Shown: positions 28,813 through 53,170 of the stretch, piece by piece | Position numbering within the stretch: position 1 is the stretch's first letter | Layout of the letters: each line of letters opens with the position of its first letter | Assembly (NCBI RefSeq): GCF_041146795.1 | Contig: NC_135188.1 | Location: forward strand, 1,007,419-1,071,418 | DNA length: 64,000 nucleotides | Reading direction: 5' to 3' | Source of the DNA: Maylandia zebra | Lineage: Eukaryota > Chordata > Actinopteri > Cichliformes > Cichlidae | The notes under the pieces: model-generated | Seen by the model: the letters and a program-made list of their open reading frames with translations, nothing else | Database searches by the model: none | What the model was told of the DNA's origin: nothing | Program-made: the position numbers and the translations under genes

Positions 28813-28820
28813 GACACGGC
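28813..28820. repeat. 8-bp direct repeat, left copy (gacacggc)
   Basis: This octamer lies immediately outside the left terminus of the first hAT-like element. The identical octamer lies immediately outside the right terminus of the second element (53163-53170). hAT transposases duplicate 8 bp on insertion. Confidence 0.8.
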
Positions 28821-29200
28821 TAGGGTTGCCAACCGTCCCTTAAAATACGGAATCGTCCCGTATTTCGAAACAAAAGCACACGTCCCGTATTGAGCTAATA
28901 AGGGACGCACTTTGTCCCGTAATACAGTGAGAATCAAAAGTAGTCTATAAATGTTAATGGAATTAACGCCTTGTTTGAAAACATAATTCCCAGCCCCTCT
29001 CCTGCTTTGTGACCAATGAGCTCACAGCACACTTATGACAATTCGAGTATGACAATTCAGATTACCGCTCATCTCATTGGTCGAGGAAAGGTCGCTTTCG
29101 GAGAAAATACCGGAAGACAACAGATGACCACAACAAGAAGCATGGCCAACAGGGAAACAAACGCCGACTCTGCGGTGCAAGTCTCGGACGACAGTACACC

Positions 29201-29880
29201 TAAAGCTGGGCAAACACTGTGTGATTTTTTCAGTCACGTTATTCAGCTCCTGCTCAAACTGCACGATTGACTCACAGGGGTTAGAAGTTCATAGGTCACG
29301 ATGTACTCTCACACTATACCGCCCGATGCTCTGATGCGACCTGAGTGCTCACACTGTGCCGCTGTTGTGCCAAAGTAGTTACCCCCGCCATAAAATGAAG
29401 GTTATAACAGAAAATCTGTCGCTCGCTCTCTCTGTCTTTCACTCACACAGACACACCACCACCATCAACTTTGCTAAATTGCTAATGAAAAACATGATCA
29501 GGCAGCTGTGATTGAGCAGCATGTAAATCCAACTATTTTCACGGTTGTTGTGGTCGTGATAATTTTGTGATGCCACATCGAAAAGGCTCGGATGAGCTTT
29601 CCAAAGTTCTACAAGTTGTGCCTCCATCACTTGTGTCCAGATCACACGCTGCACAGCCGTGCTGCTCCATCTTTTACACCAACGTTTACGTGTTTGCGCG
29701 TGAGCAGCTGCGGTGACACCCTCACGAGCGATTGATGATCGGGAGCTGGTCGTGAGGTGTTAATCACTTCTCGTTACCCCACGTATACTACACGACGCAC
29801 GATGAAGGCCAAAATCGGTCCGATCACTCAAAAATCGGCTCAAAATGGGCCTAAAACCGCACAGTGTGAGCCCAGCGTTA
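29201..29880. mobile_element. MITE nested in hAT-like copy 1
   Basis: The inverted ends are TAAAGCTGGGCAAACACTGT and the complement of ACAGTGTGAGCCCAGCGTTA, matching at most positions. The element interrupts the hAT-like sequence and recurs in copy 2 (50767-51447). No coding sequence. Confidence 0.6.
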
Positions 29881-30213
29881 GAGCAGCAATGTTTGTTCCC
29901 CTCAGAGAAAGGGAAGAATGGGAAAAGGAAAACACCTGGCTGGAAAAAGTTAATATGGGCATGTGCAGTGAATATCAGCGCTATGTGGCCAGAAGTGTGA
30001 TAATATAATTTATTTTGTGTAATAAACAACTGCAAGGATAGATGATTACAACAAATAGATGACTAATACATAAAAGTAATACATAGATGAATAATGATGA
30101 TGAGTTAAGATGCGTAATCATGGGAACAAGTGGGTTTACAAACAGGAGCAGCTGATTAGCTTTAGAAAAGCTGAAATAATACCTCAACTGAAGCCAATTG
30201 TACTAAATGCACT

Positions 30214-31209
30214 AAATAGAATAGAATAGAATTCAACTTTATTGTCATTGCACATGCACAGGTACAGGGCAACGAAATGCAGTTTGCATCCATCCAGAAG
30301 TGCTTTAGTGATATAGATATATTACAATATATATTAGCAATAATATAGATATGTGAGTATATTACAGAAATGGGTCTATTATGGTATGTTATAATGTACA
30401 CGGTATGAAGTATGTTGTGAATATTCTATAACTATAAGTATGTACAGGATATGAACAGGATATAAATATGAAAAACTATACAGAATATGAAATAAATAAC
30501 TTTACAGAATCCGAGATATACAGTTATACAGAAATGGGAACTATGCAAGTTGTAAACAGTTGTAGGATTAAAGATTATCGAATGTACAGAATGATTATTT
30601 ACACAGAGCTATACAGTAGTGCAGTTAAGATAAGTGAGGGTGTAGATAGTTTCTACAGAGGCTATATAAAGTGCTGGTGGTTGTGAGTGGTGGTTCACTC
30701 CATGTTATTATTGTGTGTTTGAGGGTACAGTTGTCCATTGTGTGTGTGTGTATGTTCAGTCCATGAGTTTAACGTGGGTCAGATGTCAGGAGGCAGAGTT
30801 CAGGAGTCTGACAGCTGTGGGGAAGAAGCTGTTCCGGTACCTGGTGGTCTTAGTCCGGAGGCTCCTGTGGCGCCTCCCAGAGGGCAGGAGGGTGAAGAGT
30901 CCATGTGATGGGTGACTGGGGTCTTTGATGATTTTCCCAGCCCTTTTCAGACACCGCTTCCTGTAGATGTCTTTTATGGCAGGAAGTGGTGCTCCGGCGA
31001 TGCGCTGGGCAGTTTTCACGACCCTCTGCAACGCCTTCCGGTCCGAGGCAGAGCAGTTCCCGTACCAGACTGTTATACAGTTGGTCAGGATGCTCTCGAT
31101 GGTGCAGCGATAGAAGTTCACCAGGATGTCTGAGGACAGGTGGTTCTTCCTCAGAGTCCTCAAGAAGAAGAGGCGCTGGTGAGCCTTCTTGACCAGCTTG
31201 GCACTGTTA
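30214..31209 (-). mobile_element. 5'-truncated LINE nested in hAT-like copy 1
   Basis: On the - strand the sequence encodes LRTLRKNHLSSDILVNFYRC, TIESILTNCITVWYGNC, DRKALQRVVKTAQRIAGAPL and FTLLPSGRRHRSLRTKTTRY, the C-terminal region of a jockey-superfamily reverse transcriptase. It ends in a tail with CAATAAAGTTGAATTC and TTCTA repeats at 30214-30236. The coding part is open but lacks the endonuclease and RT core. It is homologous to, but distinct from, the LINE at 40864. Confidence 0.85.
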
Positions 31210-31594
31210 CAAGAATATTTTTCTTTCTATTGTTTTCTATTATTTTAAGTTAAGCAGGACAGAGTTCTTTTAAAGAAAGATTTACTTATATTCTCAAAAG
31301 TTAAGCATGACAGGCTTCTGTTTAAGAAAGAGACTTGTTTTATTGTGTTAATGTTGTCATTTTGAGCTAAAAATAAATAGCTAAATGATCATTTGTTTCA
31401 CATGTGTTGATATCACAAAGAATAGAATATGCATCTACTTAAATCAACTTCAAGTCAAATGGTTAAAAAAATAATTTCACACACAAAAAAAGAGCTAGAA
31501 AATTCACCACACTGGGAAGGGTGAAGACAACTGGGTCGCCCGGTCCTGGCCACGAGGTGTCCCTTATTTATTTTTCAGGGAGTTGGCAACCCTA

Positions 31595-32130
31595 GGTTCA
31601 AGGGACGTGCCCCTTTAGCCTTCATCACTGACTGGTGTCCAGTGACTTTAGACTTTAGAGCTTTTATTGTTCGGTTTCTTGCACACTGAAATTGGGTAGC
31701 AGGACCACAAAGGTGCAAAAGTAAAGAAAACAATCTACAACGAGGAAAAAGCAAAATATATGTATCCATATATGTGAGTAAACTGTAGACATGGTGTATG
31801 AAACACTGAAACAGAAACGTTGTTGGGCTGTATACAAGGGCAGTTATATAATATATTAAATAAATGAATAATGGTGAAGGAGCTATGGTGGATGGTAATT
31901 CACTGAGAGCAAAATATTGCACCGAACAAGGAAAGACTGAGATATAGCACATAGCAGTTGATCAATAACAGCGTCAGAGTGGTTGTATGGGAGAAGTGTG
32001 CTCACACAGAGGTCTGACAGCTCACAGGAAGAAGCTGATCTTTAGTCTGCTGGTTTGCACCTGATGGATCTGAACCTTATCCAGAGGGCAGGATGTTGAA
32101 TAGATGATGGTGTTCATCACCAACCCTTTA
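31595..32130 (-). mobile_element. LINE 3' fragment
   Basis: Read on the - strand, decayed coding sequence (ILPSG, then a region comparable to the LLPSGRR-R segment of the nested LINE) is followed by a 3' tail with AATAAAAGCTCTAAAGTC near 31650. Truncated and out of frame. Approximate limits. Confidence 0.5.
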
Positions 32131-32264
32131 CTCCACCCTTGAATATCAGCATGCAAAAGCCCTCGAGATGACTGGAACATATAATGTTTGCTTTGGTTAC
32201 CATTTTAGTTTAGCATTAGCATTAGCACTACAGGTGTCAGGTATGTCAAAGGTAAAATCACCCA

Positions 32265-32790
32265 GGCAACAAATCAAATCACTTTTATTGTCATATCACA
32301 TGTGCAGGTACATTGGTACAGCACATGTGAGTGAAATTCTTGTGTGCGAGCTTCACAAGCAACAGAGTTGTGCAAAATACAATAATGTAAACAAGCAAAA
32401 TACAAGAATGGCTACATCTGAGACTAATAAATATATGTAATATATAATAGTATATGCATTTCTGGATGTGTATACTAAATGTTTTTCTACGTGTGTGTGT
32501 GTGTGTGTACACATATTTTACAAATTAAATAGAGTAAACAATAAAATAAAATATATAAAATATACAGAGTTGAATATGTGCAAAACAGTGGCATTACTGT
32601 ACAGTATGGAGTGCATAATGTTAAAGTTCCAGCAGTGAAGCTGAGGTGTCTATGACGTGTTCAGCAGTCTGATGGCCTGGTGGAAGAAGCTGTCTCTCAG
32701 TCTGCTGGTTCGGGACCGGATGCTGCAGAACCTCCTTCCTGATGGAAGCAGTCTTTTAGGAACGCAACCCCTGATCTGTGAACACCAAAT
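32265..32790 (-). mobile_element. LINE 3' fragment
   Basis: On the - strand a conserved LLPSGRRFCSIRSRTSRLRD and FFHQAIRLLNTS segment precedes a tail with ACATGTGATATGACAATAAA and AGTGATTTGATTTG. It is the same general class as the nested LINE at 30214 but a different copy. It contains a short GT microsatellite (32492-32509). Confidence 0.65.
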
Positions 32791-35700
32791 AAGAGAGAAT
32801 TCACTACAGTGTCACAGGTGTTCACTCACCTGCCTTCACAAGCCTGTGAGCTGATTGGCAGATGGCAGTTTCCTTTTAATTTTTTCAAAGTGCCATTAGG
32901 TTATATATACTGTGTTTTGGACAAATGAGTAGTCAATCCTTTACTTCATGAAGGTCATTCATCAATCACACATGTAATTTTCTTAAACATGGTGATTTGA
33001 TGTTGTATAATTACCTGATGAAAAAAGTTTGGAAAGCTCAAATCTGAATGTTCCTCACAAAAACATTCAAAAACGAACAACACAGCAGAAACACAGAGTA
33101 CAACACGTGTGTGTCAGTGTGCTGCACAGATAAATCTCAGGTTAAAAAGAGAGAAAACAACAGGCTCTGCATGCAGGACTCAGTCTGAACACCAGGTATT
33201 TCTGCACCTGTATTATTACAGCGAACGAGTGACACACGCTTATGTTGCTGTGCACACACACCTGCATCAGCTGATGATGGTGTTACCTGAAGACTTAAAG
33301 AAAGAATCCAGTCACAGTTAACCTTAAGATGGACGGTTACCTTGAAAACGTGTATTAGAGTTCATATAAAACCATTTAAGTGAGACATTTACTCAAAATG
33401 CAGAAAAGTGAGTCCCACGCTCGTCTCGGGTAAAAAAGTGTGACAAGAGTCATGGTGGGAACCTTTGAACAGCAATCTTATAACACTTCGAGTATTGAAC
33501 ATGAAGGAGAAGTTCTAAGTTGTGCCTCCTTTTGTCTTGGCCAACAAAAACACAGGCAGGGAGGTGGGGAATGTGGACAGGAAGCTGCAGGAAGCTACAC
33601 AGCAGCAGCTCTGAGGCTGGCTGAGCTGGAAGTGAGCGGCGTCCTCCAAGAAACACAGACAGCGTCCCACAGATGTCAAATAAACCCATATTCACATCTC
33701 ATCTAAACCCATTCAGTGTTTGTCCAGACACACGAGCATGCATGGATGCTTGTGCTGCATGTTTAACATTTTTCTTCTCTTCTCTTGTTTTTCTTGGTTA
33801 AACACACTCATGCTCGTACATTTAGCTTTGTCCCCTGGTCTCTGTCGGTCCCTTGTTTTGTCAGCACACCAAGACTTCTGTTCTGGAAGATTTCTTCCCT
33901 TTCTTTGTTTCCACTCTTTGTTTGTTTTATTATTCATTTATGTTTTTCTCAATTTTGCTTTCTATTAATTTCTCTCTTCAAACATTCTTTGTGCTCTCTG
34001 CTGTTGTTTTTATTGTTTTGCATTAGTTAATCTCAGAGTGAGACCAGTGAACTTTGCAGCTCTAAGAGCGAGTCTTCGCTCACTCAGTCTGTCAGAGGCG
34101 CAGTTAAAGCAACCGCTGCAGGCTTTCAGTAAAAACGGTGCTGCTGGAGTGATTGGAAGTCTCCTGACTGTTTGACCTCATTCAGCACTGACACAGAGGC
34201 TGCTGTGCTCCTGCAGGGGGCACCAAACATCGCAGGTTAAGTAGAGCAGCATTGGACAGGACGTCGCGCACACGGTGTTTTAAGCATTGCTGCTTTATGA
34301 TAACTGTGCTTACTTAAAAAGGCATAATAATACAATTTTAAAATGAAAGAACAGATCTGAAGTATTAATCATTTTAAAGAGTATTTGTGCTTCAGTTTAT
34401 AGCAGTGCCACTCCAGCAGAGGGTTGGAGTCAGAGAAAATATTATGTGCAGTTGTTTAACCCACAGAAGCGTCTAACCTTTAATTATTGAGACACACAGA
34501 GTGTAAACTGGATAAACATACTTTGTGTTAACAAGTTCTGCAGAACTAAAAGTGCATCGAAGCACATTTTCTCCAGAAATCACCAGTTACTGCTGTAATA
34601 GTTGTATATAAAAGACTTTACTCTGCTTTTCTTTAAATGAGAAGTGGAATAGAGGCACAGGCATCAAAAACAAGCTGCATTTAAGTCTGTAAACAGGTGG
34701 GTGAGAGCTGCTTTGTGGCTTTATGCTGGACCATCAAACGTCTCAAAGACTAATGATGTTTACCTCTCCAGGTCCCCTTGAAGGATGGAAATGTACCTTT
34801 TTCCAAGCACGCGAGCACATGTCTGTGCACAGGCACACGTAATCGTGCTGCTGCTGGCCGGGTTACACTTTTCTTTCTCTATTGTTGCCTCCACAGGTGT
34901 AGAACATCTGACCAATGTTGTTCATTAATTAACAGGCAAACTTCAAGCTAGATGGAGGCTATGTCATCAGTGGAACCAGGCTGGGGGTCATGCTCTCATA
35001 GCTTCACTCTGGAAGAATTTAAGAGACCTTAAAGTCATAAAATATAACCTCCCAGAGAAGCAACCTACGCTGAGTATTGGCAGCATTAACAGTAACAGAA
35101 CTTATTGGTCTTCTAATCAGAAAAGCTGAGGAGGCAAGCAGACCACGAGACAACGCGTACACGTTTGATTATGTTTCGTTTAGTTAGCAAAAGGTCAAAA
35201 GGTCCATTTTTATCTTTTTATCCACAGTAAGTGGAAACAGTCTCACTCGCTGTCACCGTGAAGGCTGATAGAAACAATGGCATTAATCCAAGGTGATGCT
35301 TATTTATATGAACCATTTTTCATAAAGGATTAAAGAGGACATGAAGAGAAAGGGCACTCTGAAATTAAACTATAGTTACATTATCAGGTTAACGAGGGAA
35401 ATGTAATCAACATGTCTTTGCAGGAGGAGGAATTACTCTGTGCGAGGAAGCATGGCCTTTCTTTGGCTGCCGTCATAAAAAGTCTATTTTGAAGCTTTAG
35501 TTTGATGAATGTGACGGTCCCGCGTCTGTGACTCAGTGTTTTGAGTTTGTGGTTTCACTTTGGTTCTTGTTGTTTGTTATATTTCACTTTGTTTATTTCT
35601 CGGCTTCACTTTACTTGTATTTGAATTCTGGTTTCTTTGATCTTCTATGTGGTGTTTGAGTGTGTTAGGCTCTCGTGTAAGTGTTAGTCAGCGACTTCCT

Positions 35701-36325
35701 TCTGCTGTTTTTGCAGTCCTGTGTCTCTTCTGTTGTGTATTTAGTTGTATTCCTTGCCTGTGTCGTTACCTGGATTCTGTTCACCTGTGCCCAGCAGCGC
35801 TCGTGTCCTCTAACTGCCCTGTTGTGTAGATATAGTTGTGTCTTCCTCTGAGTCCTTGTCATAGTTTCCTTTCGTTGTTTTTCTGCCTGCATTGCTAATT
35901 TAAATGTTGTTTCAGTCTGACTCTGGGTCCTTTTCCTGTAATTTCTTAATTTTAGTGGTTAAAAAACTGTTAATCAGAGAAATCTGATAAATTAATAAAT
36001 TTATGAGTAAATCAAAATGCTTAAAATGTTTCTGTGGCCCAAAGAAGATTTAACAAAGCCTTTAGTCTTCGAGGTGATCCATGTCTATCATCGTTTGCTG
36101 TGTCAAATTCTCCCATTGATTTCAATGCAAAGTGTTTGGAGTATTTCTTTGTTACCTTTTTAAAACAGAACATTTCGTACAAACACACAAATGCACACAG
36201 ACACTGGACATTCATTAAATAAAAATGCATATTAACATAAATTTACTACAACAGTCAAAATAGGACTTAATGGGGAAAAAAGATTTGCATTAAAAAAAGA
36301 AGTTCTCCTACTTTAACGATTCGTT
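32791..36325. other. Non-coding interval, no gene seen
   Basis: This part of the bracketed 18.8 kb has no frame with recognisable protein similarity. A pyrimidine-rich stretch (33770-34020) and a T-rich segment (35500-35900) may be old interspersed repeats. I could not define ends. Confidence 0.45.
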
Positions 36326-36329
36326 CGTC

Positions 36330-36740
36330 TCTCCACATCACTGCAGCGCAAAAGCTCTCTCAGCCAAGTTTCAGTGATTATGCAGCTGCACTTTTCCAAA
36401 ATAACCATCAAATAACCGTCTCGGGCTGAAGCAGTCTGCTGTCCAAACGTCTGCTCCGTCTTGATCTTACCTAAAAGTCTTTTGAAGATATTCCAAGAAC
36501 ACAGAGTTTAAGACCAAAAGGGATTTTTCATATTTAGTGTTTCTGACAAACATTTGAAATCTTTCCAAAAGTTCTGGATGTCTGGATATTCCCACAGCCA
36601 ATGAAACAAAGCACCCTTTTCATTCAGGCATTTAGTGCACACATCTGACTTTTGTTGCCATGATGCCAGGTCTCTCTTGGAAATGAGATTTTTAATCTCA
36701 ATGAGATTTTTACCTGGATAAATAAAGGACTAATAACATC
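36330..36740 (-). mobile_element. Possible L1-like LINE fragment
   Basis: On the - strand a decayed frame includes CTKCLNEKGALFHWLWEYPD, resembling the Cys/His-rich C-terminal segment (C-x2-C...H-x-W/F-CP) of fish L1-type ORF2 proteins. An ACCTGGATAAATAAAGG-type motif lies at 36713-36729 on +. The call rests on a short, broken match. Confidence 0.4.
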
Positions 36741-38143
36741 TGAAACACTGGCAGAGACATGATGGGAGTTAAGTGCGTTCTCGTCAGCCACTTACTCTGA
36801 AGCTTAGTTTAGTTTTCTCAGTATTTAACTCATCCTGTAATCATTCATCAACATCTTTGTAGTGTTCCTCATGTACCACTTTATAGAAAGGCGGTGACAT
36901 TTACACTGACAGCGCTGTGAACTCGTCAGTAACATTTGCAACTTACATTGTAGCAAAGCAACATTTTCTTTATTTTTCAAAACTAAACACAAAAATCAAA
37001 CAGGCTAATGTTCAAACACGGTTTCACTGTTGTTCATGCAGCTTCAGAGGACGTGTCGCATGTCTCATCGTGGTGCTACATGCACTCATAAAAACAACAG
37101 AGATCAGTGGAATAACTGAACACATCTGACTGATGACATACACAGTAAATCACAACACGACCTCCTTTGAAAGAAAAGCAACAATTCTGAAATCAGCTCT
37201 GTCACGTGGACTTGGCCACACTCTCTCATCCATGTCAGAACAAATGTTCTCACTTGCCAAACATCTTGGAAAGAACCTTCAGGCGTGACGAATCCAGCCG
37301 GACTCTGGTCTGCTGTGATGTCCCTGCATGCCTCATCCACGGCCCGGAGAAGGGTCACGTGTTGATGCGGACGCCTACCATACACGTTCCACCTCAATGT
37401 GGAGAAAATTCCTCAATAAGGTCGAGGACAGCAGGAGCATCAGGGCGACTACACAGCAGCAGAGTGTGGATGGCTCTGAAACCATTGCCTGCACCAGCTG
37501 AGATTGGTGGGACATGAAAATGTCCCATTTAACAAGACGCACTGTGTTTCTAATGTAGCCGCACACGGTGATGTGTTGGGTACTTCCTCTTCCTGCTCCA
37601 TGTTACAGTACTGCTACGTTGCTATGGAAACCACTCAATAATACTTGCGGCTGAAATGAATCATCAGTAACAAACTGGTGTGAGTGGATCTGAAATTTCC
37701 ATGACCAAAAATGAAGTTAACATCAGCCAACATCTGAAGTGTAATATGTAAATAGTTTTTGGAAATGGTAACGCTTTGATGCTGAGTTGGATCTTTGACT
37801 TAGCTTCATGTTATCCGAGAAACTGGAAACCTGGTTCTGAAGCTAACGTAGGAAACAATTCTTACTACGGTACAACCAGTCCTGCAGCAGCTCTAAAACG
37901 TCTGGAAAGAGAAAACCAGGTGAAGCCGAGCTGCCAAATCATTGCTATCAGCCTTTGGCCCTCAGCTAGGACTACACCTGATGACCTGCTATTATGCAAA
38001 CCTGCTGTTTAGCTACTTTTGTGCGGGCTAAAGGTCACAGACATTCTCATGTATACATGTGTTTTGTGGCATTCCTCTGAGCTGTGTTTTATTTCTTCAG
38101 CTCCTCTGGTTCGTCCTATCACTGCCCAGTCTCGACAGTTATG
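36741..38143. other. Non-coding interval, no gene seen
   Basis: No recognisable coding sequence, RNA gene or transposon ends. Open frames up to about 100 codons on both strands (37104-37517) overlap each other and have no known protein features. Confidence 0.45.
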
Positions 38144-38170
38144 TATATAATAATAATAATAATGATAATA

Positions 38171-38214
<44 letters not shown>

Positions 38215-38398
38215 AATAATGATGATGATGATGATGATGATAATAATAATAATAATAATAATAATGATGATGATGATGATAATAATAATAATGATAATAA
38301 TAATAATGATGATGATGATGATAATACTAATAATAATAATGATAATAATGATGATGATGATGATGATGATGATGATAATAATAATGATGATAATAATA

Positions 38399-38433
<35 letters not shown>

Positions 38434-38458
38434 AATAATAATAATGATAATAATAATA

Positions 38459-38496
<38 letters not shown>

Positions 38497-38518
38497 AATA
38501 ATAATAATAATAATAATA
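38144..38518. repeat. Long compound (GAT)n/(AAT)n microsatellite
   Basis: About 375 bases of pure trinucleotide repeat in which blocks of TGA and TAA units alternate (for example (GAT)14, (AAT)8, (GAT)9 runs). It creates artefactual open frames of poly-Asp/Asn, poly-Met/Ile, poly-Ile and poly-His/Tyr in different frames. These are not genes. Confidence 0.98.
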
Positions 38519-40184: not shown

Positions 40185-40187
40185 ACA

Positions 40188-40640: not shown

Positions 40641-40863
40641 CATTCTTCTCTGACCTCTGACCTCTAGCATTAACAATGCATTTTCAGTCAGAAAACTGCC
40701 ATGCAATGCATATTTCCCCCTTCTCAGCGTATTCTCTGTAAACCTTTAAGATGATTATGTGGGAAGGTCCCAGCAGAGCGCCGGTGAGGTCGGCTGCCGT
40801 CACGACTGCTCCGACCACTTTTTCTTTGTCTTTGTTTTTTAAGTTAGTTTTCAGCGTTTCTAA

Positions 40864-43755
40864 ATCGGCAAAATCATCACCATTGGGTACATTAGGTATG
40901 ACAGTGACACTCTTGTTTCTATTGGTTTACAATGTACTCACAATTCGAAGTTTTTAACTCCGGATCCGAGCTGGCCGAGTGAGATCTCGAGGGAGAACAA
41001 AGGGAAGCGGCGGCGGCCTAGAGGGAAGCGAGCCGGCGTCAGGAACAGGCTGAGAGCTCGTGCACACCGCACACCTCTGCCTAGCATCCTGCTCGCCAAC
41101 GTCCAGTCACTGGAGAACAAGCTTGACGACCTCAGGGCCAGGATAAAGTTCCAGAGAGACATTCGGGACTGCAATCTCCTCTGCTTCACCGAGACATGGC
41201 TGAACCCAGCGGTGCCGGACCACGCCATCCAGCCGGCCGAGTTCTTCTCGGTTCACCGCATGGACAGGACACGGGACTCGGGGAAGTCAAGGGGAGGCGG
41301 CGTGTGTTTAATGGTGAACAACAACTGGTGCAACAGTGCGAACGTTGTTCCTCTCACACGCTCCTGCACACCAAATCTGGAACTACTGTCCATCATGTGT
41401 CGTCCTTTTTATCTACCTCGGGAATTTACATCGGTCATTGTAAGTGCCGTTTATATTCCACCACAAGCGGACACGGTCACCGCCTTATGCGAGCTGCATG
41501 AGGCACTCACACAGCACCAGACACAACACCGGGACGCTGCGCTTATTGTGACGGGGGACTTTAATAGCGCCAACCTCAAACGCGCAGCGCCGAACTTTTA
41601 TCAACACATCACCTGCCCCACCAGGGGTGAAAGGACACTGGACCACTGCTACACTACGGTCAAGGACGGCTACAAGGCACAATCCCGCCCCCCGTTTGGC
41701 AAATCTGATCACGCCGCCATCTTCCTCATGCCAAAATACAAACAAAGGCTGAAACAGGAAGTTCCGGTTCAGAGGAAGGTCGCGCGCTGGACGGATCAAT
41801 CGGTGGCCGCGTTACAGGACGCACTCGATGACGCAGACTGGGGCATGTTCAGAAACAGCTCCGACGATGACGTCAACGTGTTTACGGAAGCGGTTGTGGG
41901 ATTCATCGGGAAACTAGCGGATGATACCGTGGAGACAAAGACTATCACAACGTTTCCCAACCAGAAGCCGTGGGTGGATAAAACCATCCGCGACGCTCTG
42001 AGATCCCGCACCGCTGCCTACAACACGGGACTCATGACGGGGGACATGGACCCGTACAAAGCCGCGTCATATAACGTGCGGAGGGCGGTGAAAGAGGCGA
42101 AGCAGCGCTACGGGAGGAAACTAGAGTCACAACTCCAACAGAGTGACTCTAGGAGCCTGTGGCGGGGACTAAGGACAATAACGGACTATAAAGCACCAAC
42201 AACCGGTATGACGAACGCGGCCGTGACTCTGGCAGACGAGCTGAACACTTTCTATGCTCGCTTCGAGGCTGCAGCTAAGGACTCCAACAATGCTAGTGCT
42301 AGCGGCGCTAACGGCTGCAGACAGGAAGATACTGCCAGCACCGGAAACGTGCTCGTCATCTCCGAGCATGAAGTAAGGAGAGCCTTCAAGAGAGTGAACA
42401 CCAGGAAAGCAGCAGGACCAGACAGCATCCCAGGTCGTATCCTCAGAGACTGCGCATACCAGCTAGCTCCTGTGTTCACTGAGATATTCAACATCTCTTT
42501 ATCTCAGTCGGTGATCCCCACATGCTTCAAAGAGTCCATCATTGTTCCTGTCCCGAAGAAACCCCACCCTGCTTCTCTCAATGACTATCGCCCTGTAGCC
42601 CTCACCTCAGTAGTGATGAAGTGCTTTGAACGCCTGGTCAGAGACTTCATCATTTCTTCACTACCAGACACACTGGACCCACTACAGTTCGCTTACCGTC
42701 CAAATCGTTCCACAGACGATGCCATCTCTCATCTCCTCCACACATCACTCACTCACTTGGACACTAGAAGGGGGAATTATGTTAAAATGCTCTTCATAGA
42801 CTACAGCTCTGCATTTAACACCATAATTCCCTCCACACTCACCACCAAGCTGGAGCATCTGGGACTCAGCTCATCTATGTGTCAGTGGGTCTCCAACTTC
42901 CTAACTGGCAGACCACAGGCAGTAAGGATGGGCGGACATGTCTCAGCCTCCACCACTCTCAGCACTGGAGCCCCCCAGGGGTGTGTTCTGAGCCCCCTGC
43001 TGTACTCTTTGTACACATATGACTGTGTGGCCACTACCAGCTCCACCACCATCATCAAGTTTGCTGACGACACCGTCGTGGTGGGCCTGATCTCTGATAA
43101 CAACGAGACGGCCTACCTGAAGGAGATTAGGAATCTGGAGAACTGGTGCCAGAGGAACAACCTCCTTCTAAACGTCAGTAAGACAAAGGAGCTGATAGTG
43201 GACTTCAGCACTAAGCAGGAGAGGAACTACCAGACCCCCGTCATCAACGAGTGCCCAGTGGAGAGAGTGGACAGCTTCAAATACCTCGGAGTTCACATCA
43301 CGCAGGACCTGTCATGGTCCTGTCACATCAACACCGTGGTGAAAAAGGCCCGACAGCGTCTCTACCACCTCAGACGCTTGAGAGACTTCCAACTGCCCTC
43401 CAAGGTGCTCAGGAACTTTTACTCGTGCACCATAGAGAGCATCCTGACGGGAAACATCTTAACCTGGTTCGGGAACAGCACCATGCAGGACAGACGAGCT
43501 CTACAGAGGGTTGTGCGGTCAGCTGAGCGCACCATCCGCTCCGAGCTCCCTGACCTGCACTCAGTCTACAGCAGGCGGTGCTGGACCAAGGCCAGGAAGA
43601 TGGTGAAGGACCTCAGCCATCCCAACAACAGACTGTTCTCTCTGTTGAGGTCAGGAAAGCGATTCCGCTCCCTGAAGACCAACACAGAGAGACTGAGGAG
43701 GAGCTTCTTCCCGCAGGCGATACGGTCTCTCAATCACACCACCACACAGTACTGA
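40864..43755 (+). CDS. LINE ORF2: endonuclease-reverse transcriptase (intact reading frame)
   Basis: A 963-codon frame is open from just after a TAA at 40861-40863 to the stop at 43753-43755. It encodes an AP-type endonuclease and reverse transcriptase of the jockey superfamily (CR1/L2/Rex1-like, clade not resolved). Endonuclease motifs in order: LLANVQSLENKLDDL, LLCFTETWL, GGGVCLMV, VSAVYIPPQ, IVTGDFNSANL, LDHCYT and KSDHAAIFL. RT motifs: DYRPVALTSVVMKCFERLV, LQFAYRPNRSTDDAI, MLFIDYSSAFNTI, TGAPQGCVLSPLLYSLYTYD, the catalytic FADD in IIKFADDTVVVG, and FKYLGVHI. The C-terminal FYSCTIESILTGNI...LRSGKRFRSL region follows. No in-frame ATG lies near the N-terminal end of the frame; it opens IGKIITIGYIRYDSDTLVSI. 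Translation may therefore start further upstream, by frameshift, or at a non-ATG codon, or the copy may be 5'-truncated. No stop interrupts the catalytic domains. Confidence 0.9.
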   Translation: MGKIITIGYIRYDSDTLVSIGLQCTHNSKFLTPDPSWPSEISRENKGKRRRPRGKRAGVRNRLRARAHRTPLPSILLANVQSLENKLDDLRARIKFQRDIRDCNLLCFTETWLNPAVPDHAIQPAEFFSVHRMDRTRDSGKSRGGGVCLMVNNNWCNSANVVPLTRSCTPNLELLSIMCRPFYLPREFTSVIVSAVYIPPQADTVTALCELHEALTQHQTQHRDAALIVTGDFNSANLKRAAPNFYQHITCPTRGERTLDHCYTTVKDGYKAQSRPPFGKSDHAAIFLMPKYKQRLKQEVPVQRKVARWTDQSVAALQDALDDADWGMFRNSSDDDVNVFTEAVVGFIGKLADDTVETKTITTFPNQKPWVDKTIRDALRSRTAAYNTGLMTGDMDPYKAASYNVRRAVKEAKQRYGRKLESQLQQSDSRSLWRGLRTITDYKAPTTGMTNAAVTLADELNTFYARFEAAAKDSNNASASGANGCRQEDTASTGNVLVISEHEVRRAFKRVNTRKAAGPDSIPGRILRDCAYQLAPVFTEIFNISLSQSVIPTCFKESIIVPVPKKPHPASLNDYRPVALTSVVMKCFERLVRDFIISSLPDTLDPLQFAYRPNRSTDDAISHLLHTSLTHLDTRRGNYVKMLFIDYSSAFNTIIPSTLTTKLEHLGLSSSMCQWVSNFLTGRPQAVRMGGHVSASTTLSTGAPQGCVLSPLLYSLYTYDCVATTSSTTIIKFADDTVVVGLISDNNETAYLKEIRNLENWCQRNNLLLNVSKTKELIVDFSTKQERNYQTPVINECPVERVDSFKYLGVHITQDLSWSCHINTVVKKARQRLYHLRRLRDFQLPSKVLRNFYSCTIESILTGNILTWFGNSTMQDRRALQRVVRSAERTIRSELPDLHSVYSRRCWTKARKMVKDLSHPNNRLFSLLRSGKRFRSLKTNTERLRRSFFPQAIRSLNHTTTQY

Positions 43756-44223
43756 CCCACACATACAGTTCTTACACACACACTGGACTTTCTGGACTTT
43801 GGTTTTGCACAACACTGGTCACTATATTCTTCATTTCCGGTTAATACTTGTACAGCTGCTGTTATTGTGTATATATTTATTTATATTTCTTCATACATTC
43901 TTATATAGTTCTATATTGTGTATTTTGTTGTACAGTTATTTTATTTTCAACTTTAATTTATATATTTTATCTTATTCTTTCCCAGTTAAATTTACCCTTC
44001 ATTCTAATTTGTGTTGTACAGTTATTTCATTTTTAACCTTAATTTATATTTTATTCCTTCCTAGTTAAATTTACCCTTTTTAATTTTTCATATTTATTTC
44101 CTATCTTATTCATAGCCTTTTCCTTTTTTGTTTTCTTTAGGTCACGAGCAGTTGTCCAAGCATTTCACTACATATCGTACTGTGTATGACTGTGTACGTG
44201 ACAAATAAAATTTGAATTTGAAT
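40864..44223 (+). mobile_element. Near full-length LINE retrotransposon
   Basis: The coding frame (40864-43755) is followed by a T-rich 3' UTR and the terminus ACAAATAAAATTTGAATTTG with GAATTT repeats (about 44200-44223). The 5' boundary is not defined; I found no obvious target duplication by eye. It is inserted in the + direction within the hAT-bracketed block. Confidence 0.85.
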
Positions 44224-45148
44224 TTTGATTTATGAAATTCCCAGACCAGCCAGTCTGCTGCCAGCAATCATGTTTCAGAGTCACTGAAATCACCTGTCTT
44301 AAAGCCTTCCTCCCATTGGATACACAGCTTCTGGCTATTAAAGAAATCAATGTAAGTGACATGTGCTTCCCAGTTTTCAACCACACGACTCACGCAGCTC
44401 TCGTTAGCTCATTTCTCTTACAGGCTGGCTTCAGTCTGTTACACATCATGTTTTTATCATCCGAGTAATCCTGAGACATTGTCAAAATATATCTAAACTA
44501 ATTAAAGAGTAGTATATATCATTTTAATAGACAGCTGGATCATTTCATAAAATGTTATTCCCACGGAGCTGATACTAACATATCTGAGATGTAAACAGAT
44601 AGAAACACAGCAGCTTTAAGTAAATCACCATTAAGAGACAACACATTACGTCGCATGGTTTACATGCGGTTTGGTAGGAGCTACAAATGTTATCTCTAAA
44701 GCTTCGTAAATCTGTAGCGCGAGTGGATTTTGGCACCGGCGCCTCTTTCCATTGTGAAATTGAACCGTACGTCATGTCGTATAAAAGCCCGACAGCGTGC
44801 ACGAACAGCATATGTTACATTTCAGGCTGAATACCACCACAGCACTACGTGAGCCCACAGCTGTGTCTTGCGCAGCTGGCTGCTTCCTTGAACTTGCCTG
44901 CAATCTCTGCTGAGGTCTTGTATCAACAAAACTTGGATTTTTTAAAACACAGTAAAACCTCACAGCTCCCAGAGAAAAGCCTGAAGTGACTCGTTTGGAT
45001 TTTCCTCTTTTTGTCTGTCTGTCTTCCCCACTCATGTCTTTGATTGTTATCAGTCACATGTACATCGCTGCATTAAACCTACAATAGATGATCCATTGGC
45101 CACTTGTGGGCAGCAGAAACAAGCTAAGATCTCAGCATTTTGTTCCTT
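44224..45148. other. Non-coding interval, no gene seen
   Basis: A short spacer between the LINE and the next MITE. No gene, RNA or repeat terminus recognised. Confidence 0.5.
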
Positions 45149-45152
45149 TTAA

Positions 45153-45495
45153 AGGGACAGTTCACAAAGAAATAAACACACACACGGTTTTCTTCTGGCC
45201 TGTTGTGTTACTTATAAATCAACACCAGTTGCTTTGGTGTTGCTTCTGTGTTGTTGTGCATTTTGTTGTCTGCTAGCTCTTAAAACTACAGTCTTACTAT
45301 ATGGTGCTTTTATGTTTTTGAGGTTTGGCATCACACTGCATGCATTCTTGGACTAAAGTGGGTTTTACTTGTCTAAACTGCACCTTGCTGCGAGCTGTTC
45401 TGCTTCCAGCTCCTGTCCCTTTAAGGCCACCCTCTGGATGGATAAACAGCACTACAAGCTAACATGTTGATTTGATTTTGGGGTGAACTGTCCCT
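45153..45495. mobile_element. piggyBac-like MITE
   Basis: The ends are AGGGACAGTTCAC and GTGAACTGTCCCT, a perfect 13-bp inverted pair. They are flanked on both sides by TTAA (45149-45152 and 45496-45499), the signature target site of piggyBac. The 343-bp body has no coding sequence, so it is non-autonomous. Confidence 0.85.
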
Positions 45496-45499
45496 TTAA

Positions 45500-47229
45500 G
45501 CACATATGGCAAACCTGTCAGCAAGCAGGAAATTAGCATTCAGATGGTCACATAGTGAATGCCACTTCAGTGTTTGATCTCTCCGAGCTCTGTGGGGTTT
45601 GTTTGTTTTCACATCTCTGCTCCTGAATAATATTTCAGACTCTTTAGCTGCGTAATGCTCCACTCTGGCACTGCTGTTTGCATGAACTCTGCCATTTGAT
45701 ATGTTGTTATGATAAAAAAATATGAGCTAAAGTTGCTTAATCTCTCCTTTCCTTTTCTTTGTATGCACTAATTCTAGCTTCTTATCACCTCCCCACGGTC
45801 CTATCTTCATGCCTCCACTCTCCTGGGCTCCTGACCCCCGCTGGCTATGAAACTTGACTGATCCCACTCAGGAATTTGCCCTATATCACAAGAGCTGGGG
45901 CCCACTGGAGAAGTGAATCACATGAGCATTTTGTAGGTATAATGAAGATGGACGGGCTGCAGAGAGCGCTGACAGTACGAGTCACATTCCTCAGGCTGCT
46001 TCTCACTCACACATCCCCACATCACTGTGGTATGCTTTACTGAACTCTAACATTACTGAGCTTAATCCTCATTTATTCAGTGTATACAAACTTTTCCTCT
46101 TCGATATGTAGAAAAAGACACAAACATACTTCAGTTATGCCATCTTATTAGCACGATCCTGCGTGGACCCTGATTGAGAGGAAAGAGGCCGACACTCTTT
46201 CCACACTATTTCTTCATCTGTGAAGGGAAAACACGACCCTGCTTTTGACAAGTGTGTGCACTTATGCTTGCTTTCTGTTAATTAGCTCTCGATGTCTGCC
46301 TGCATGTGGAGTTTTATTTGGTGACGCAGAGTAAAGTTTGCTAATCAAGTCAAACACTGCGCTGCTGTGGTGGAGGCTTTCAAAAATGTGCAGAACAATC
46401 AAACCACCAGCTTTCAAGCCAGATAATGGCGACCACGTTACAGTATAGAAAGGCTTCCATTGGTTTCCTCACTAAGACCACACACACAGCTTCGGTGTCA
46501 TGTCTCTGCTTCTTTTCCTTCTGATTAACATTACAGGAAGCTTTGGGAAAATGTGATGCCAAGGTTTGCTGTTTATTCAGGATATATATTAAAAGTGTTT
46601 TTCACAGCTTTGAAAAAGCATGAATTCAAAGAACCACAAAAATGGTGAACTGGCAGCTGAGCAACATCTCTCAAGAGTTCAACAAGTCTATTACTGACAT
46701 GAGCAGACACACAAAGCACCAAATATTGACTCTTTCTTAGCCCGTCTTTCTTTAGCGCTGGGCTGGCAGAGCAAACAGCTGGACTGCCACAGCACTGTCT
46801 TTCATCCTAACAACCCCTTGTGTCTCACCCCCGGGCCTCTGTCTGCTTGTACACCTACAGCACTGCTTTCTCCATGTGGGGGGCCCACATCACTTCAAAG
46901 CGCCCTGTGTTGGAGCTCCAGTTGGGTGACAAACAGCTATAGCCCAGCTGAGCAGGATCACACTTGTCAGAGCAAAGGAAACACATGTTGGAGAGTGGCT
47001 ATGGCTAGAGTGGCTACTTGTGGTTTGGACCAAGGGAGTCACTGAATACGATTGCATGTCCTTACACTCAAACATAAAGATAAAAGCAGAACGTGCATTT
47101 ATGCTTACAGCCTTTGCCTTAAAAGAGAAACCATGTTTGGCAGATGTGCAAAGGAAGATTCTCAGATCTTTGTAAAAAGAAAGAAAATACAAGCAGCAAG
47201 CTCATGGAGCCAATAAATAATTTAATAAA
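45500..47229. other. Non-coding interval, no gene seen
   Basis: No coding similarity or repeat boundary recognised. Small open frames are isolated and lack features. Confidence 0.5.
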
Positions 47230-47231
47230 TA

Positions 47232-48219
47232 TCATATTTTCCGCACTATAAGATGCACTTAAAATCCTTAAAATTTCTCAGAAATCGACAGTGCACCTTA
47301 TGTATGAATTCTAGTTGTGCTTACTGACCTCGAACCGATTTTATGTGCTACACGGCGCTCAAACATCTGTCAAAAATGTTTTAGTACGACTTTGCTAAGC
47401 TACGAAGCCGCACCGCTGGATGGATTGTTGGAGCATTACAGCTACCGTAGTCAGGAGCCGCGCGGAGTAATCTGGGTCCTAAACTCCGTCTTTTCAGGTC
47501 ACAAAGTCAAGCGAACACTGCAGCATCACTGAGAGTTACAAACTGTCCAAATTCTTTCATCTTTAATAAAATAATCAGCGTTGTAACAATTAAGTTTAAC
47601 ATCCAGACATCCATGAAAACAGAATTTATTAAATTTAACAGTTAGAAGTTAGCAGGAAGTTGGCTCGCTAGCTTCCACCTAAACATGATATAGCATGTTC
47701 TGACTGAGAGATTTCTGAAACAAATTCAAACGTACAGCTCTGTTATCACTTCCAACATAAATGAAGACAGAAAACTAAACAGCAGTGACGTTTGTAGGGT
47801 TACTGAAGTTGGGCTAGCTGCTATGTAATGATTTGCTATGTGATCGCTAGCTACACAGCTATGTTAGCCTAGCATAAACACAGCGAAGCTGGAGGATGAA
47901 CGCTAACTTTTTTCCCCTCGATAAAAGTTAACGTGAGGGTTCCCGATGGTTAGGGACAAATGCAATCGCATGGCAGGATGCTGTAAACGGACCAAACTTC
48001 AGTCAGGAGAACAGCTGAGATCATCCATCCACAATACGAGGTTAGTCATTAATATACTGCAACAACATGGGAATAGAGCAGCTGCAGAGAATTCAACATT
48101 CATAAATCAACGGTACAGAAGTGGAGGAAGCAAGAAGAATGAGTTGAGTAAAGTCTGACTTATCTGACTGTTTTAATGTGCCTTATAATCTGGTGCGCCT
48201 TATGGTCTGAAAAATGCGG
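47232..48219 (+). mobile_element. pogo/Tigger-like deletion derivative
   Basis: Degenerate inverted ends are recognisable: TCATATTTTCCGCACTATAA on the left, and on the right the complement of CGCATTTTTCAGACCATAAG. TA lies on both sides (47230-47231; 48220-48221). Inside, 47946-48158 encodes HGNRAAAENSTFINQRYRSG, matching the helix-turn-helix segment (GNRAAAREF-I-E--VR-WR) of pogo/Tigger-type transposases. The DDE domain is absent. About 20 of 28 terminal bases match between ends, so it is an old copy. Confidence 0.65.
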
Positions 48220-48239
48220 TAAGTATATAGGTCTGTCTT

Positions 48240-48835
48240 TCCTAGCGTCTTCCCAGCATGGGGTCCGCTGCGTGGCTCTTTCTTCTCCATTTGGATCGAT
48301 CTTGGGTGTACTCTGGGGCAAGATCCACTCGGTGATTGCATCCATCCTTCGTTTGGTCTTCCTCACGGTCGGCGGCCTCCAGGGTCGAGTCAGAGGGCTG
48401 TTCTTGACACTGAATTCTCCTCACTGCGCATACGTGTCCATGACGTGCCCATACCACCATAGGCGCACTTCCCTCATCTTCTTTGTGATTGGGGCAACTC
48501 CTAGTCATTTTCAAACAGCTTCATTCGTCACACGATCCAGGAGGGTGAAGCCCACCATCCACCTGACTGTCTTCTTTTCCACAGCATTGAGGATCTGCTC
48601 GTGTTTCGTGGTGGCTGGCCAGCGTTCTGCTCCATACAGGGCCATCGGCCATATGACTGTCTTCTGGATCTTAGCTTTGAGGTGTTCAGGCATCCTCTTA
48701 TCACACAGGATGCTGGTGGATTCGTGCTATTTAGCCATGCTGTGTTGATTCGTGAGCGCACATCTGGAAGCGTCTCGCCATCCACCGGGACCAGGGACCC
48801 GAGGTATTTGGGTGGTCTTCTTTAACTCCTGCCTG
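48240..48835 (-). mobile_element. LINE (RTE-like) ORF2 C-terminal fragment
   Basis: On the - strand the sequence encodes KIQKTVIWPMALYGAERWPA and TTKHEQILNAVEKKTVRWMV, then DRVTNEAV. This corresponds to the TVIRP-ALYGAE-W...E-RMLRW segment after the RT core of RTE/craft-type LINEs. Several stops and frame breaks show it is dead. Confidence 0.75.
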
Positions 48836-50378
48836 TCGATCTGGATCGATCCCAGAGTCTGAGGAGCACATGCTAAAATAAATAAATAGATAAATTACTT
48901 CATTATTAAATTAAAGAAATGCCACCACAGAGTTGCAGTTCATTGAATGGCCACTTGAGGGTGTCTCCAAGAGCAACTCAACCTTTACAGCAGACGTACT
49001 GTATGTCATTATGTTTGTGCGTTAGTGTGGCAAAAGGAAATGACCATCATAATAAATATTATTATATATTATATTATATATTATTATATTATTATTAAAA
49101 GCTGTTCTGCATAGCTCATTTTTGTTGTAGCTGCTAGGCTTCACCCTTACCTGGTTTAAGACACTAAACTGGACTTTGCACACACATGCAAATATTTATA
49201 TTTCCAATTTTTTTGTACATAGTTCCTGATTTTCAGAGTTGATCCCAAGTATCGAACTTGCACCTAGTAGCTGTTCACTCTCAACATGAGGTCCAAAGAG
49301 ATGTTGATGCTGATGTGGAGGTAAAAGACCAAAATAGAGAGACAACAACAACATGACAATCTTCAAAAGAAGAAAAACTGACCAGCTCAGCCTCGGTGAA
49401 AGACCACAAAAAACAACTGGTGGATAAACAGAGCTCTTTCTTTGGTTTATAAAAACTCTGTCACAACATCGAGTCATGAACACTCTTAACGATGTGGGTG
49501 TATTATTGTGGATTTTGGTCCAGGCCTACAGCGCTTTAATGTAACGTTTTTCCCCGTTATGTATTCAAAAGTGGGATTTCAAATGTAATGCATACTTGTG
49601 AATGTACATTTTAGCGTAACGCACAAAATGTCAAACTGAGAACATTGTGGACCGCATACAGCCCAGTTTGATCCTACGTGGGCCAGACAAGTGAAACTAC
49701 TGTTAGAAGCCTCTAAAGTGTTTCTCACCTCGTTTAACTCCACATTTAATCCCTGAGATGTCCTTAGAAGATTAAGTGTAATTTCAACAATATGTCTCAG
49801 TGTTTCCACATTATAAAGAAATGCTGTGGTGTCTGAAACCTTCAGCTTGGCTCTTTGGGCCTTGACTAAGAAATGAAAAAAAAGAAAGTACAGAAAAGCA
49901 CTGGCAGCTCGTTATCTGCACTTTCCTTTGTTAATCTGAAGAAGATGTCCCGTTTTTCTTTTTTAAAAAAGTGCAGTGACTTTCTGGAATAACCTTTTTA
50001 GTACAACACTAACAGTAAGAAAGCACCTTGATCTCTCTCATCCAAAATTTCTCCTTCTTTGCAATTTTAACAACCTTCTCGTGAGCTCGACCGTTTCAGT
50101 TTCCACTGGTATCTATTCGGCTCAGCTCAGCTTGACTCTGTTTTTAGGGTTTCCCAGTAGGCGGTAGTAGCTGGTACCGCATCAGCAGACAAAAAGCCAT
50201 ACACTGAGCAGCAGGTATGTGACGTAAGACGACAGTATGTGATCTGGACTGACCAAAGAACAAAGAGGAAGAAAATCAATCCCCCATCTCCCTCTGCTGT
50301 GAAGCAACACCACTAATCCCCGAATGAAGGTGCAGAAATTAGAAAGTGAGCTAACTAGCTTCTAAAACACTGTGTACA
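48836..50378. other. Non-coding interval, AT-rich simple sequence at 49050-49100
   Basis: No gene is seen. A TAT/ATT-rich low-complexity tract occurs at about 49050-49100. A segment near 50095-50240 (CTCAGCTCAGCTTGACTC; TAGGCGGTAGTAGCTGGTAC) looks like part of a fish DNA-transposon repeat, but I could not find paired ends. Confidence 0.4.
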
Positions 50379-50766
50379 TTAGCAAATAGGGTTGCCAACC
50401 GTCCCTTAAAATACGGAATCGTCCCGTATTTAGAAACAAAAGCACACGTCCCGTATTGAGCTAATAAGGGACGCACTTTGTCCCGTAATACAGTGAGAAC
50501 CAAAAGTGGTCTATAAATGTTTATGGAATTAACGCCTTGTTTGAAAACATAATTCCCAGCCCCTCTCCTGCTTTGTGACCAATGAGCTGACAGCACACTT
50601 ATGACAATTCGAGTATGACAATTCAGATTACCGCTCATCTCATTGGTCGAGGAAAGGTCGCTTTCGGAGAAAATACCGGAAGACAACAGATGACCACAAC
50701 AAGAAGCATGGCCAACAGGGAAACAAACGCCGACTCTGCGGTGCAAGTCTCGGACGACAGTACACC

Positions 50767-51447
50767 TAAAGCTGGGCAGACACTGTGTGATTTTTTCAGT
50801 CACGTTATTCAGCTCCTGCTCAAACTGCACGATTGACTCACAGGGGTTAGAAGTTCATAGGTCACGATGTACTCTCACACTATACCGCCCGATGCTCTGA
50901 TGCGACCTGAGTGCTCACACTGTGCCGCTGTTGTGCCAAAGTAGTTACCCCCGCCATAAAATGAAGGTTATAACAGACAATCTGTCGCTCGCTCTCTCTG
51001 TCTTTCACTCACACAGACACACCACCACCATCAACTTTGCTAAATTGCTAATGAAAAACATGATCAGGCAGCTGTGATTGAGCAGCAGTGTAAATCCAAC
51101 TATTTTCACGGTTGTTGTGGTCGTGATAATTTTGTGATGCCACATCGAAAAGGCTCGGATGAGCTTTCCAAAGTTCTACAAGTTGTGCCTCCATCACTTG
51201 TGTCCAGATCACACGCTGCACAGCCGTGCTGCTCCGTCTTTTTCACCGACGTTTACGTGTTTGCGCGCGAGCAGCTGCGGTGACACCCTCACGAGCGATT
51301 GATGATCGGGAGCTGGTCGTGAGGTGTTAATCACTTCTCGTTACCCCACGTATACTACACGACGCACGATGAAGGCCAAAATCGGTCCGATCACTCAAAA
51401 ATCGGCTCAAAATGGGCCTAAAACCGCACAGTGTGAGCCCAGCATTA
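50767..51447. mobile_element. MITE nested in hAT-like copy 2
   Basis: The same nested element as at 29201-29880, with the same ends and insertion point. Confidence 0.6.
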
Positions 51448-51781
51448 GAGCAGCAATGTTTGTTCCCCTCAGAGAAAGGGAAGAATGGGAAAAGGAAAAC
51501 ACCTGGCTGGAAAAAGTTAATATGGGCATGTGCAGTGAATATCAGCGCTATGTGGCCAGAAGTGTGATAATATAATTTATTTTGTGTAATAAACAACTGC
51601 AAGGATAGATGATTACAACAAATAGATGACTAATACATAAAAGTAATACATAGGTGAATAATGATGATGAGTTATGATGCGTAATCATGGGAACAAGTGG
51701 GTTTACAAACAGGAGCAGCTGATTAGCTTTAGAAAAGCTGAAATAATACCTCAACTGAAGCCAATTGTACTAAATGCACTA

Positions 51782-52777
51782 AATAGAATAGAATAGAATT
51801 CAACTTTATTGTCATTGCACATGCACAGGTACAGGGCAACGAAATGCAGTTTGCATCCATCCAGAAGTGCTTTAGTGATATAGATATATTACAATATATA
51901 TTAGCAATAATATAGATATGTGAGTATATTACAGAAATGGGTCTATTATGGTATGTTATAATGTACACGGTATGAAGTATGTTGTGAATATTCTATAACT
52001 ATAAGTATGTACAGGCTATGGACAGGATATAAATATGAAAAACTATACAGAATATGAAATAAATAACTTTACAGAAATCTGAGATATACAGTTATACAGA
52101 AATGGGAACTATGCAAGTTGTAAACAGTTGTAGGATTAAAGATTATCGAATGTACAGAATGATTATTTACACAGAGCTATACAGTAGTGCAGTTAAGATA
52201 AGTGAGGGTGTAGATAGTTTCTACAGAGGCTATATAAAGTGCTGGTGGTTGTGAGTGGTGGTTCACTCCATGTTATTATTGTGTGTTTGAGGGTACAGTT
52301 GTCCATTGTGTGTGTGTGTATGTTCAGTCCAATAGTTTAACGTGGGTCAGATGTCAGGAGGCAGAGTTCAGGAGTCTGACAGCTGTGGGGAAGAAGCTGT
52401 TCTGGTACCTGGTGGTCTTAGTCCGGAGGCTCCTGTGGCGCCTCCCAGAGGGCAGGAGGGTGAAGAGTCCATGTGATGGGTGACTGGGGTCTTTGATGAT
52501 TTTCCCAGCCCTTTTCAGACACCGCTTCCTGTAGATGTCTTTTATGGCAGGAAGTGGTGCTCCGGCGATGCGCTGGGCAGTTTTCACGACCCTCTGCAAC
52601 GCCTTCCGGTCCGAGGCAGAGCAGTTCCCGTACCAGACTGTTATACAGTTGGTCAGGATGCTCTCGATGGTGCAGCGATAGAAGTTCACCAGGATGTCTG
52701 AGGACAGGTGGTTCTTCCTCAGAGTCCTCAAGAAGAAGAGGCGCTGGTGAGCCTTCTTGACCAGCTTGGCACTGTTA
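51782..52777 (-). mobile_element. 5'-truncated LINE nested in hAT-like copy 2
   Basis: The same nested LINE 3' end as at 30214-31209. The 125-codon frame at 52731-52354 on the - strand differs at one residue seen (TTRYQNSFF here, TTRYRNSFF in copy 1). The shared truncation and insertion point show that the LINE entered the element before the two copies separated. Confidence 0.85.
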
Positions 52778-53162
52778 CAAGAATATTTTTCTTTCTATTG
52801 TTTTCTATTATTTTAAGTTAAGCAGGACAGAGTTCTTTTAAAGAAAGATTTACTTATATTCTCAAAAGTTAAGCATGACAGGCTTCTGTTTAAGAAAGAG
52901 ACTTGTTTTATTGTGTTAATGTTGTCATTTTGAGCTAAAAATAAATAGCTAAATGATCATTTGTTTCACATGTGTTGATATCACAAAGAATAGAATATGC
53001 ATCTACTTAAATCAACTTCAAGTCAAATGGTTAAAAAAATAATTTCACACACAAAAAAAGAGCTAGAAAATTCACCACACTGGGAAGGGTGAAGACAACT
53101 GGGTCGCCCGGTCCTGGCCACGAGGTGTCCCTTATTTATTTTTCAGGGAGTTGGCAACCCTA

Positions 53163-53170
53163 GACACGGC
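53163..53170. repeat. 8-bp direct repeat, right copy (gacacggc)
   Basis: Identical to 28813-28820 and directly abutting the right terminus of the second hAT-like element. Confidence 0.8.

Follow-up and report, generated by a model that had tools for sequence, protein, structure and literature searches.

The 64,000-nucleotide stretch of Maylandia zebra DNA analysed here (the window, C22:1007419-1071418 of a 962-Mb, 63-contig genome) contains a 24.3-kb unit made of two sister transposon copies and the host DNA between them. The unit lies between an upstream gene that we take to be nexn, recognised by eye from its open reading frames, and mindy4. Element E1 (28821-31594, plus strand, 2774 bp) and its sister copy E2 (50387-53162, plus strand, 2776 bp) are non-autonomous and hAT-like; each begins with the 13-bp sequence TAGGGTTGCCAAC and terminates in its reverse complement, so that both have perfect ends and the same orientation. 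They are 99.2% identical, with 22 differences (20 substitutions and 2 one-base indels). The octamer GACACGGC stands immediately left of E1 (28813-28820) and again immediately right of E2 (53163-53170), while the inner octamers are GGTTCAAG to the right of E1 (31595-31602) and TTAGCAAA to the left of E2 (50379-50386). The order is thus GACACGGC - E1 - GGTTCAAG ... TTAGCAAA - E2 - GACACGGC, and we read the two outer octamers as the halves of one target-site duplication made by the whole unit. An initial annotation had given the same element positions, perfect terminal inverted repeats and shared orientation, and had described the outer octamers as identical and the inner ones as not matching them; re-reading the window sequence confirmed all of this. 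As in macrotransposons of the Ac/Ds type, the pair belongs to one family and lies in direct orientation with its outer ends intact, and the target-site duplication is found at the outermost ends only.

Is this arrangement unusual for the family? The best 40 of 3449 candidates from a genome search were scored, so our copy list is a lower bound. Eighteen of 20 further copies that were fetched have duplications matching at 8/8 bases, L024 is truncated at its 5' end, and L039 is mismatched; L029 shows an 8/8 duplication despite 9 mismatches in its last 25 bases. Five additional copies were read at both ends, with 8/8 matches in L057, L060, L061 and L064 and a mismatch in L059. In total, perfect 8-bp duplications flank 22 of the 24 other family copies read at both ends, a count that leaves out L024, L058 and L063 (no 3' end in the fetched stretch), L062 (only 70 bases) and L065 (3' end only). 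An 8-bp duplication is therefore the rule for this family, and a shared outer pair with an unmatched inner pair departs from that rule.

One way to account for this departure would be two unrelated solo insertions that each lost their other duplicated octamer and match on the outside by chance. Flank loss does occur in the family: comparison with L064, which is inserted in the same repeat, indicates that L039 is a simple insertion lacking 16 bp of one flank. However, octamers drawn at random from the left and right flanks (8.8 kb each) would be identical with a probability of 2.7e-5, and solo insertions would leave unexplained that the DNA between E1 and E2 has a counterpart elsewhere whose limits fall at the element termini. 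We regard this explanation as extremely improbable. Two other candidates were rejected. A circle bearing a single element would give equal inner octamers, and GGTTCAAG and TTAGCAAA differ; tandem duplication by reversed ends was discarded because there is no duplicated flank in the window.

The ends and targets of the family resemble those of hAT elements, whose terminal inverted repeats are short and begin C/TA and whose target sites favour T at position 2 and A at position 7. Besides the 8-bp duplications and the 13-bp termini, 12 of 21 octamers have T at position 2 and 12 have A at position 7, counted in 21 of the 22 matching copies; GACACGGC itself has neither. P, Merlin and Zisupton elements also make 8-bp duplications. 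Judged from its termini and targets, the family appears to be hAT-like, with these three superfamilies as formal alternatives. No hAT domain was detected at E<=0.1 across the six frames of E1, a non-autonomous element. Rfam gave 0 matches on the window at gathering thresholds, TAGGGTTGCCAAC, sought in literature text for a family name, had no match there, and exact terminal patterns gave 0 relatives in viral contigs and genome contigs beyond this genome.

The cargo between the elements (31595-50386, 18,792 bp) has one long counterpart among the matches scored, which we take as its source; it lies on the same contig, contiguous and inverted, at C22:1350402-1330902 (reverse strand). This stretch measures 19,501 bp from GGTTCAAG through TTAGCAAA, and 270,313 bp separate it from the unit. 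Three cargo queries, which together cover 6.5 of the 18.8 kb, each had a single further match over its full length, in every case on C22 in reverse: the first 2 kb at 1348403-1350402, the middle 2.5 kb at 1334388-1336885 and the last 2 kb at 1330902-1332901. Both of two candidates were scored for the middle query; for the first and last queries, which also turned up shorter repeat matches, the best 40 of 2266 and 40 of 269 were scored, so the number of long copies is a lower bound. The cargo and source were aligned end to end, and the limits of homology coincide with the element termini to within one base. At the source, GGTTCAAG and TTAGCAAA each occur singly, with no adjoining element and no footprint-like repeat, and no exact 13-base element end is present in the 40 kb examined around it (of which 5,000 bases, C22:1355919-1360918, are N). 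The source flanks match the window only through short repeats elsewhere (121 bp at 79% and 43 bp at 91%), and in a Pfam search of these flanks (L041 and the initial 4.8 kb of L044) no domain reached E<=0.01. The initial annotation had proposed that the interior was foreign, and that a donor locus would show the inner octamers either unduplicated or flanking solo elements. Such a locus does exist, at another place on the same chromosome, with each octamer present once and no element. As in Ac/Ds-type macrotransposons, the cargo is contiguous at the donor locus and limited by the element ends.

Segment limits at the element ends, single inner octamers at the source and identical outer octamers are what macrotransposition predicts. 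We consider it likely that the 24.3-kb unit is a macrotransposon that moved from C22 at ~1.33-1.35 Mb to the site between nexn and mindy4. In this scenario, a source haplotype would have carried two sister non-autonomous hAT-like elements in direct orientation, at GGTTCAAG and TTAGCAAA. A transposase acting in trans would have paired the left end of the first element with the right end of the second, so that both elements and the intervening DNA were excised as one block. The block would then have inserted ~270 kb away, inverted relative to its source, duplicating GACACGGC, and the inner octamers would be what survives of two older duplications, one half of each. In the assembly, the source would represent a haplotype without the elements, hence the presence of both copies in one sequence. 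Since the assembly's source lacks the elements, the unit and source would come from different ancestral haplotypes; a crossover within the 270 kb, transposition onto the homologous chromosome or a haplotype switch during assembly may have joined them.

The contiguity of the source also bears on composites of the kind made by re-replication in maize, in which inner ends transpose during replication and the interior results from the fusion, at a new junction, of two flanks that used to lie outside. According to the accessible text on these composites, they likewise have two elements, an outer 8-bp duplication and unmatched inner flanks (PMC4270019). They predict switched flanks and a fusion, whereas the interior here is contiguous with a single source stretch between the inner octamers, bar a 217-bp inversion and a microsatellite difference. 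We therefore find such an origin highly improbable.

The cargo and source are closely similar, with 46 differing sites in ~17.9 kb outside two variable blocks (0.26%, or about 99.7% identity) and 198 mismatches plus 19 indels when everything is counted. The middle 2.5 kb of the cargo is 100% identical to the source. A 217-bp stretch (34681-34897) is flipped with respect to the source and adjoins ~215 bp that the source alone contains, and an (ATG)n microsatellite (38162-38496, plus strand) is ~500 bp longer at the source. A difference of ~0.26% is of the order of heterozygosity, and the level seen is compatible with alleles. This level, together with the 99.2% identity of the E1 and E2 repeats, would also suit an assembly error in which a second source haplotype, carrying both elements, was wrongly joined to a solo-element locus by way of the near-identical copies. 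However, this would require two separate misjoins via 2.8-kb repeats that differ at 22 places, in a gap-free window (zero N) of a 63-contig, 962-Mb assembly, and it would still need a solo sister element flanked on either side by GACACGGC. We judge an assembly error to be very unlikely.

How closely are the two elements related? In a tree of 22 copies, E1 and E2 group together (support 0.80). At positions 57 and 2515 both carry bases absent from the other comparable copies (19 and 20; L024 has no position 57), a point in favour of macrotransposition. Several observations, most of them concerning this pair, weigh against macrotransposition. The E1-E2 difference (20/2774) is larger than that between cargo and source (46/~17,900; Fisher p=0.0003), so the elements were probably not created as identical copies by the move, and unless gene conversion took place, the data do not suit a simple, late local hop that derived one element from the other. 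At 10 of the 20 E1-E2 substitutions, E1 has the allele of other copies; when those ten sites are omitted, a step decided after inspection, the rate does not differ significantly from that of cargo and source (p=0.32). The final 761 bp of E1 and E2 are identical, which is somewhat unexpected (largest-gap simulation p=0.02) and could mean that the elements have exchanged sequence. In addition, the transposase gene for the family was not identified, and in the one assembly examined we saw no source haplotype with elements, no deleted source and no empty target site.

The E1-E2 divergence pattern allows gene conversion among copies, and this is the main support for a recombination involving three elements. 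Here, a solo element at GACACGGC would have recombined with a circle or conversion template from the GGTTCAAG/TTAGCAAA haplotype, leaving the cargo between two hybrid elements. The resulting octamer pattern and source would be identical to those expected from macrotransposition. E1 has the commoner base of the copies that lack a LINE (long interspersed nuclear element) insert at positions 114, 861, 881 and 1267, as does L021 at 861 and 1267, and E1 and E2 are identical over their last 761 bp; together, these observations suggest that exchange among copies may have occurred. However, three-element recombination requires that the target already held a third element from the same private sublineage and that one or two homologous exchanges took place, whereas macrotransposition requires two elements and one event, and no element end was found at the source. 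On balance, we think this recombination unlikely. Of the two routes originally offered for the arrival of the interior, transposition as cargo between two elements is thus the more economical; recombination of an element-bearing circle into a resident element, which calls for a third resident element and further recombination, is less so. That the interior came from elsewhere, common to both routes, is supported by its counterpart at another place in the chromosome.

An insert in E1 (30215-31201, minus strand; element positions ~1395-2381) matches Pfam ALKBH8_N and is read as a LINE 3' fragment because the same Pfam match comes from the LINE frame in the cargo. The insert is carried by 8 of the 22 aligned copies (E1, E2 and six others), and the 14 copies without it are ~1.72-1.78 kb long. 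A MADF-like coding remnant in E1 (29526-29615, minus strand) is weak: with E=0.041 it does not reach the Pfam cut-off. Within the cargo, the LINE frame is open over 963 codons from stop to stop (40864-43755, plus strand) and encodes a reverse transcriptase domain. Cargo-source mismatches peak at 41.6-44.6 kb, where 20 of the 46 are found. The only Pfam domains in the frames scanned across the unit are the reverse transcriptase, two ALKBH8_N matches (read as LINE) and the weak MADF remnant; the scan covered the reading frames of the unit except the third plus frame at 37.5-43.5 kb, the plus frames at ~43.5-43.8 kb and the minus strand at 50.5-53.2 kb (E2). Outside the unit, exon 1 of mindy4 was located at ~55089 using a human peptide, and the MINDY-3/4 domain is present; this puts the insertion ~1.9 kb upstream of that exon. 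Further away, a minus-strand open reading frame at 8220-9599 resembles TAB2/TAB3 by eye.

Other composites of this family were also sought. The exact 5'-end 30-mer has 233 genome matches (118 plus, 115 minus), and 100 of these positions were examined for pairing. Among them are seven neighbour pairs less than 125 kb apart, a cut-off chosen after inspection, and all seven are in the same orientation; the next pair (128 kb) is opposed. In one pair among the listed ends, the distance is just 385 bp (C6:6918101). For four close pairs in the same orientation, one partner was tested: L057 and L060 each have their own 8/8 duplication, L058 has no 3' end within 2 kb, and L059 is mismatched. L059 (C3:24001533) is a complete element with unmatched octamers, CTTGTGTT and TCTGACAC; no exact element end elsewhere in the genome carries these at the required position, and its neighbour L061 is a simple insertion. 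The octamers of L039 recur beside other copies on C10 and C13, all within one shared repeat. L039, L063, L064 and L065 comprise one family copy on C5, two on C10 and an element end on C13, all situated a few bases apart in this other repeat, which is possibly an insertion hotspot. No second composite was found in the small part of the family covered by this search.

If our interpretation is correct, 18.8 kb of foreign DNA has been placed just upstream of mindy4, and cooperating copies of a DNA transposon create dispersed duplications of host DNA in animals. It is tempting to go further and view the unit as a recent, perhaps still segregating case of natural vertebrate macrotransposition, in a family whose copies cooperate to move tens of kilobases of host DNA lying between them and thereby generate dispersed segmental duplications; we offer this wider view tentatively, and hold it with some doubt. 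Under macrotransposition, two-element source haplotypes, deleted sources and empty targets should segregate. The octamer pattern would be diagnostic, and it can be searched for in any long-read genome. Macrotransposition as such is already known in maize, where Huang and Dooner (2008) and Wang et al. (2022) reportedly dealt with Ac/Ds macrotransposons, and the carriage of large DNA by fish hAT ends is known from engineered Tol2 vectors.

Of 14 papers in the literature searched that mention macrotransposition, seven concern maize and four other plants, judged by title or abstract, with one each for Anopheles, Drosophila and the fish element Teratorn. The literature searches, several of which covered just the top of long result lists, showed no case of natural macrotransposition in a vertebrate; many subscription papers fall outside their coverage, and we do not claim that there is none in print. 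In the accessible parts of the papers cited here, a Ds/Ac macrotransposon moved up to 100 kb in maize (PMC3260210), a 28-kb Ac/Ds macrotransposon was excised in maize (PMC9910405), bacterial artificial chromosomes (BACs) of >100 kb bearing Tol2 ends integrated into the genome of zebrafish (PMC3146455), and macrotransposition was proposed for P elements of Anopheles (PMC1562414). The Ds/Ac and Tol2 precedents indicate that hAT transposases can move DNA of such sizes.

These systems, as far as their accessible descriptions go, resemble the unit to different degrees. Like the unit, maize Ac/Ds macrotransposons consist of two cooperating hAT elements whose outer ends are used, with an 8-bp duplication outermost and ~10-100 kb of host DNA between (PMC9910405, PMC3260210). 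In contrast to these, the unit is in a vertebrate, both of its elements are non-autonomous, and the evidence for it is the product together with an element-free source, not genetic crosses. Reversed-ends composites made by re-replication also have two copies flanking host DNA and an outer 8-bp duplication, but their interior is two fused flanks, whereas that of the unit is one contiguous source segment (PMC4270019). Tol2 BAC inserts in zebrafish likewise involve a fish hAT transposase, with >100 kb integrated between the ends (PMC3146455); Tol2 there is an engineered vector, whereas the unit holds natural host DNA between two natural copies. Teratorn, a 180-kb piggyBac-herpesvirus element of medaka, shares with the unit a very large cargo between the ends of a fish DNA transposon, but its cargo is viral and lies within one element, and in the accessible text the terms macrotransposon and macrotransposition each appear a single time, in the reference list (PMC10175614). 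In inversions mediated by Galileo in Drosophila, as in the unit, swapped target duplications and an element-free reference site reveal a transposon-driven rearrangement (PMC2775673). According to the accessible text, those inversions arose by ectopic recombination between opposed copies, with chimeric elements, whereas the unit has direct copies and a transferred segment (PMC2775673).

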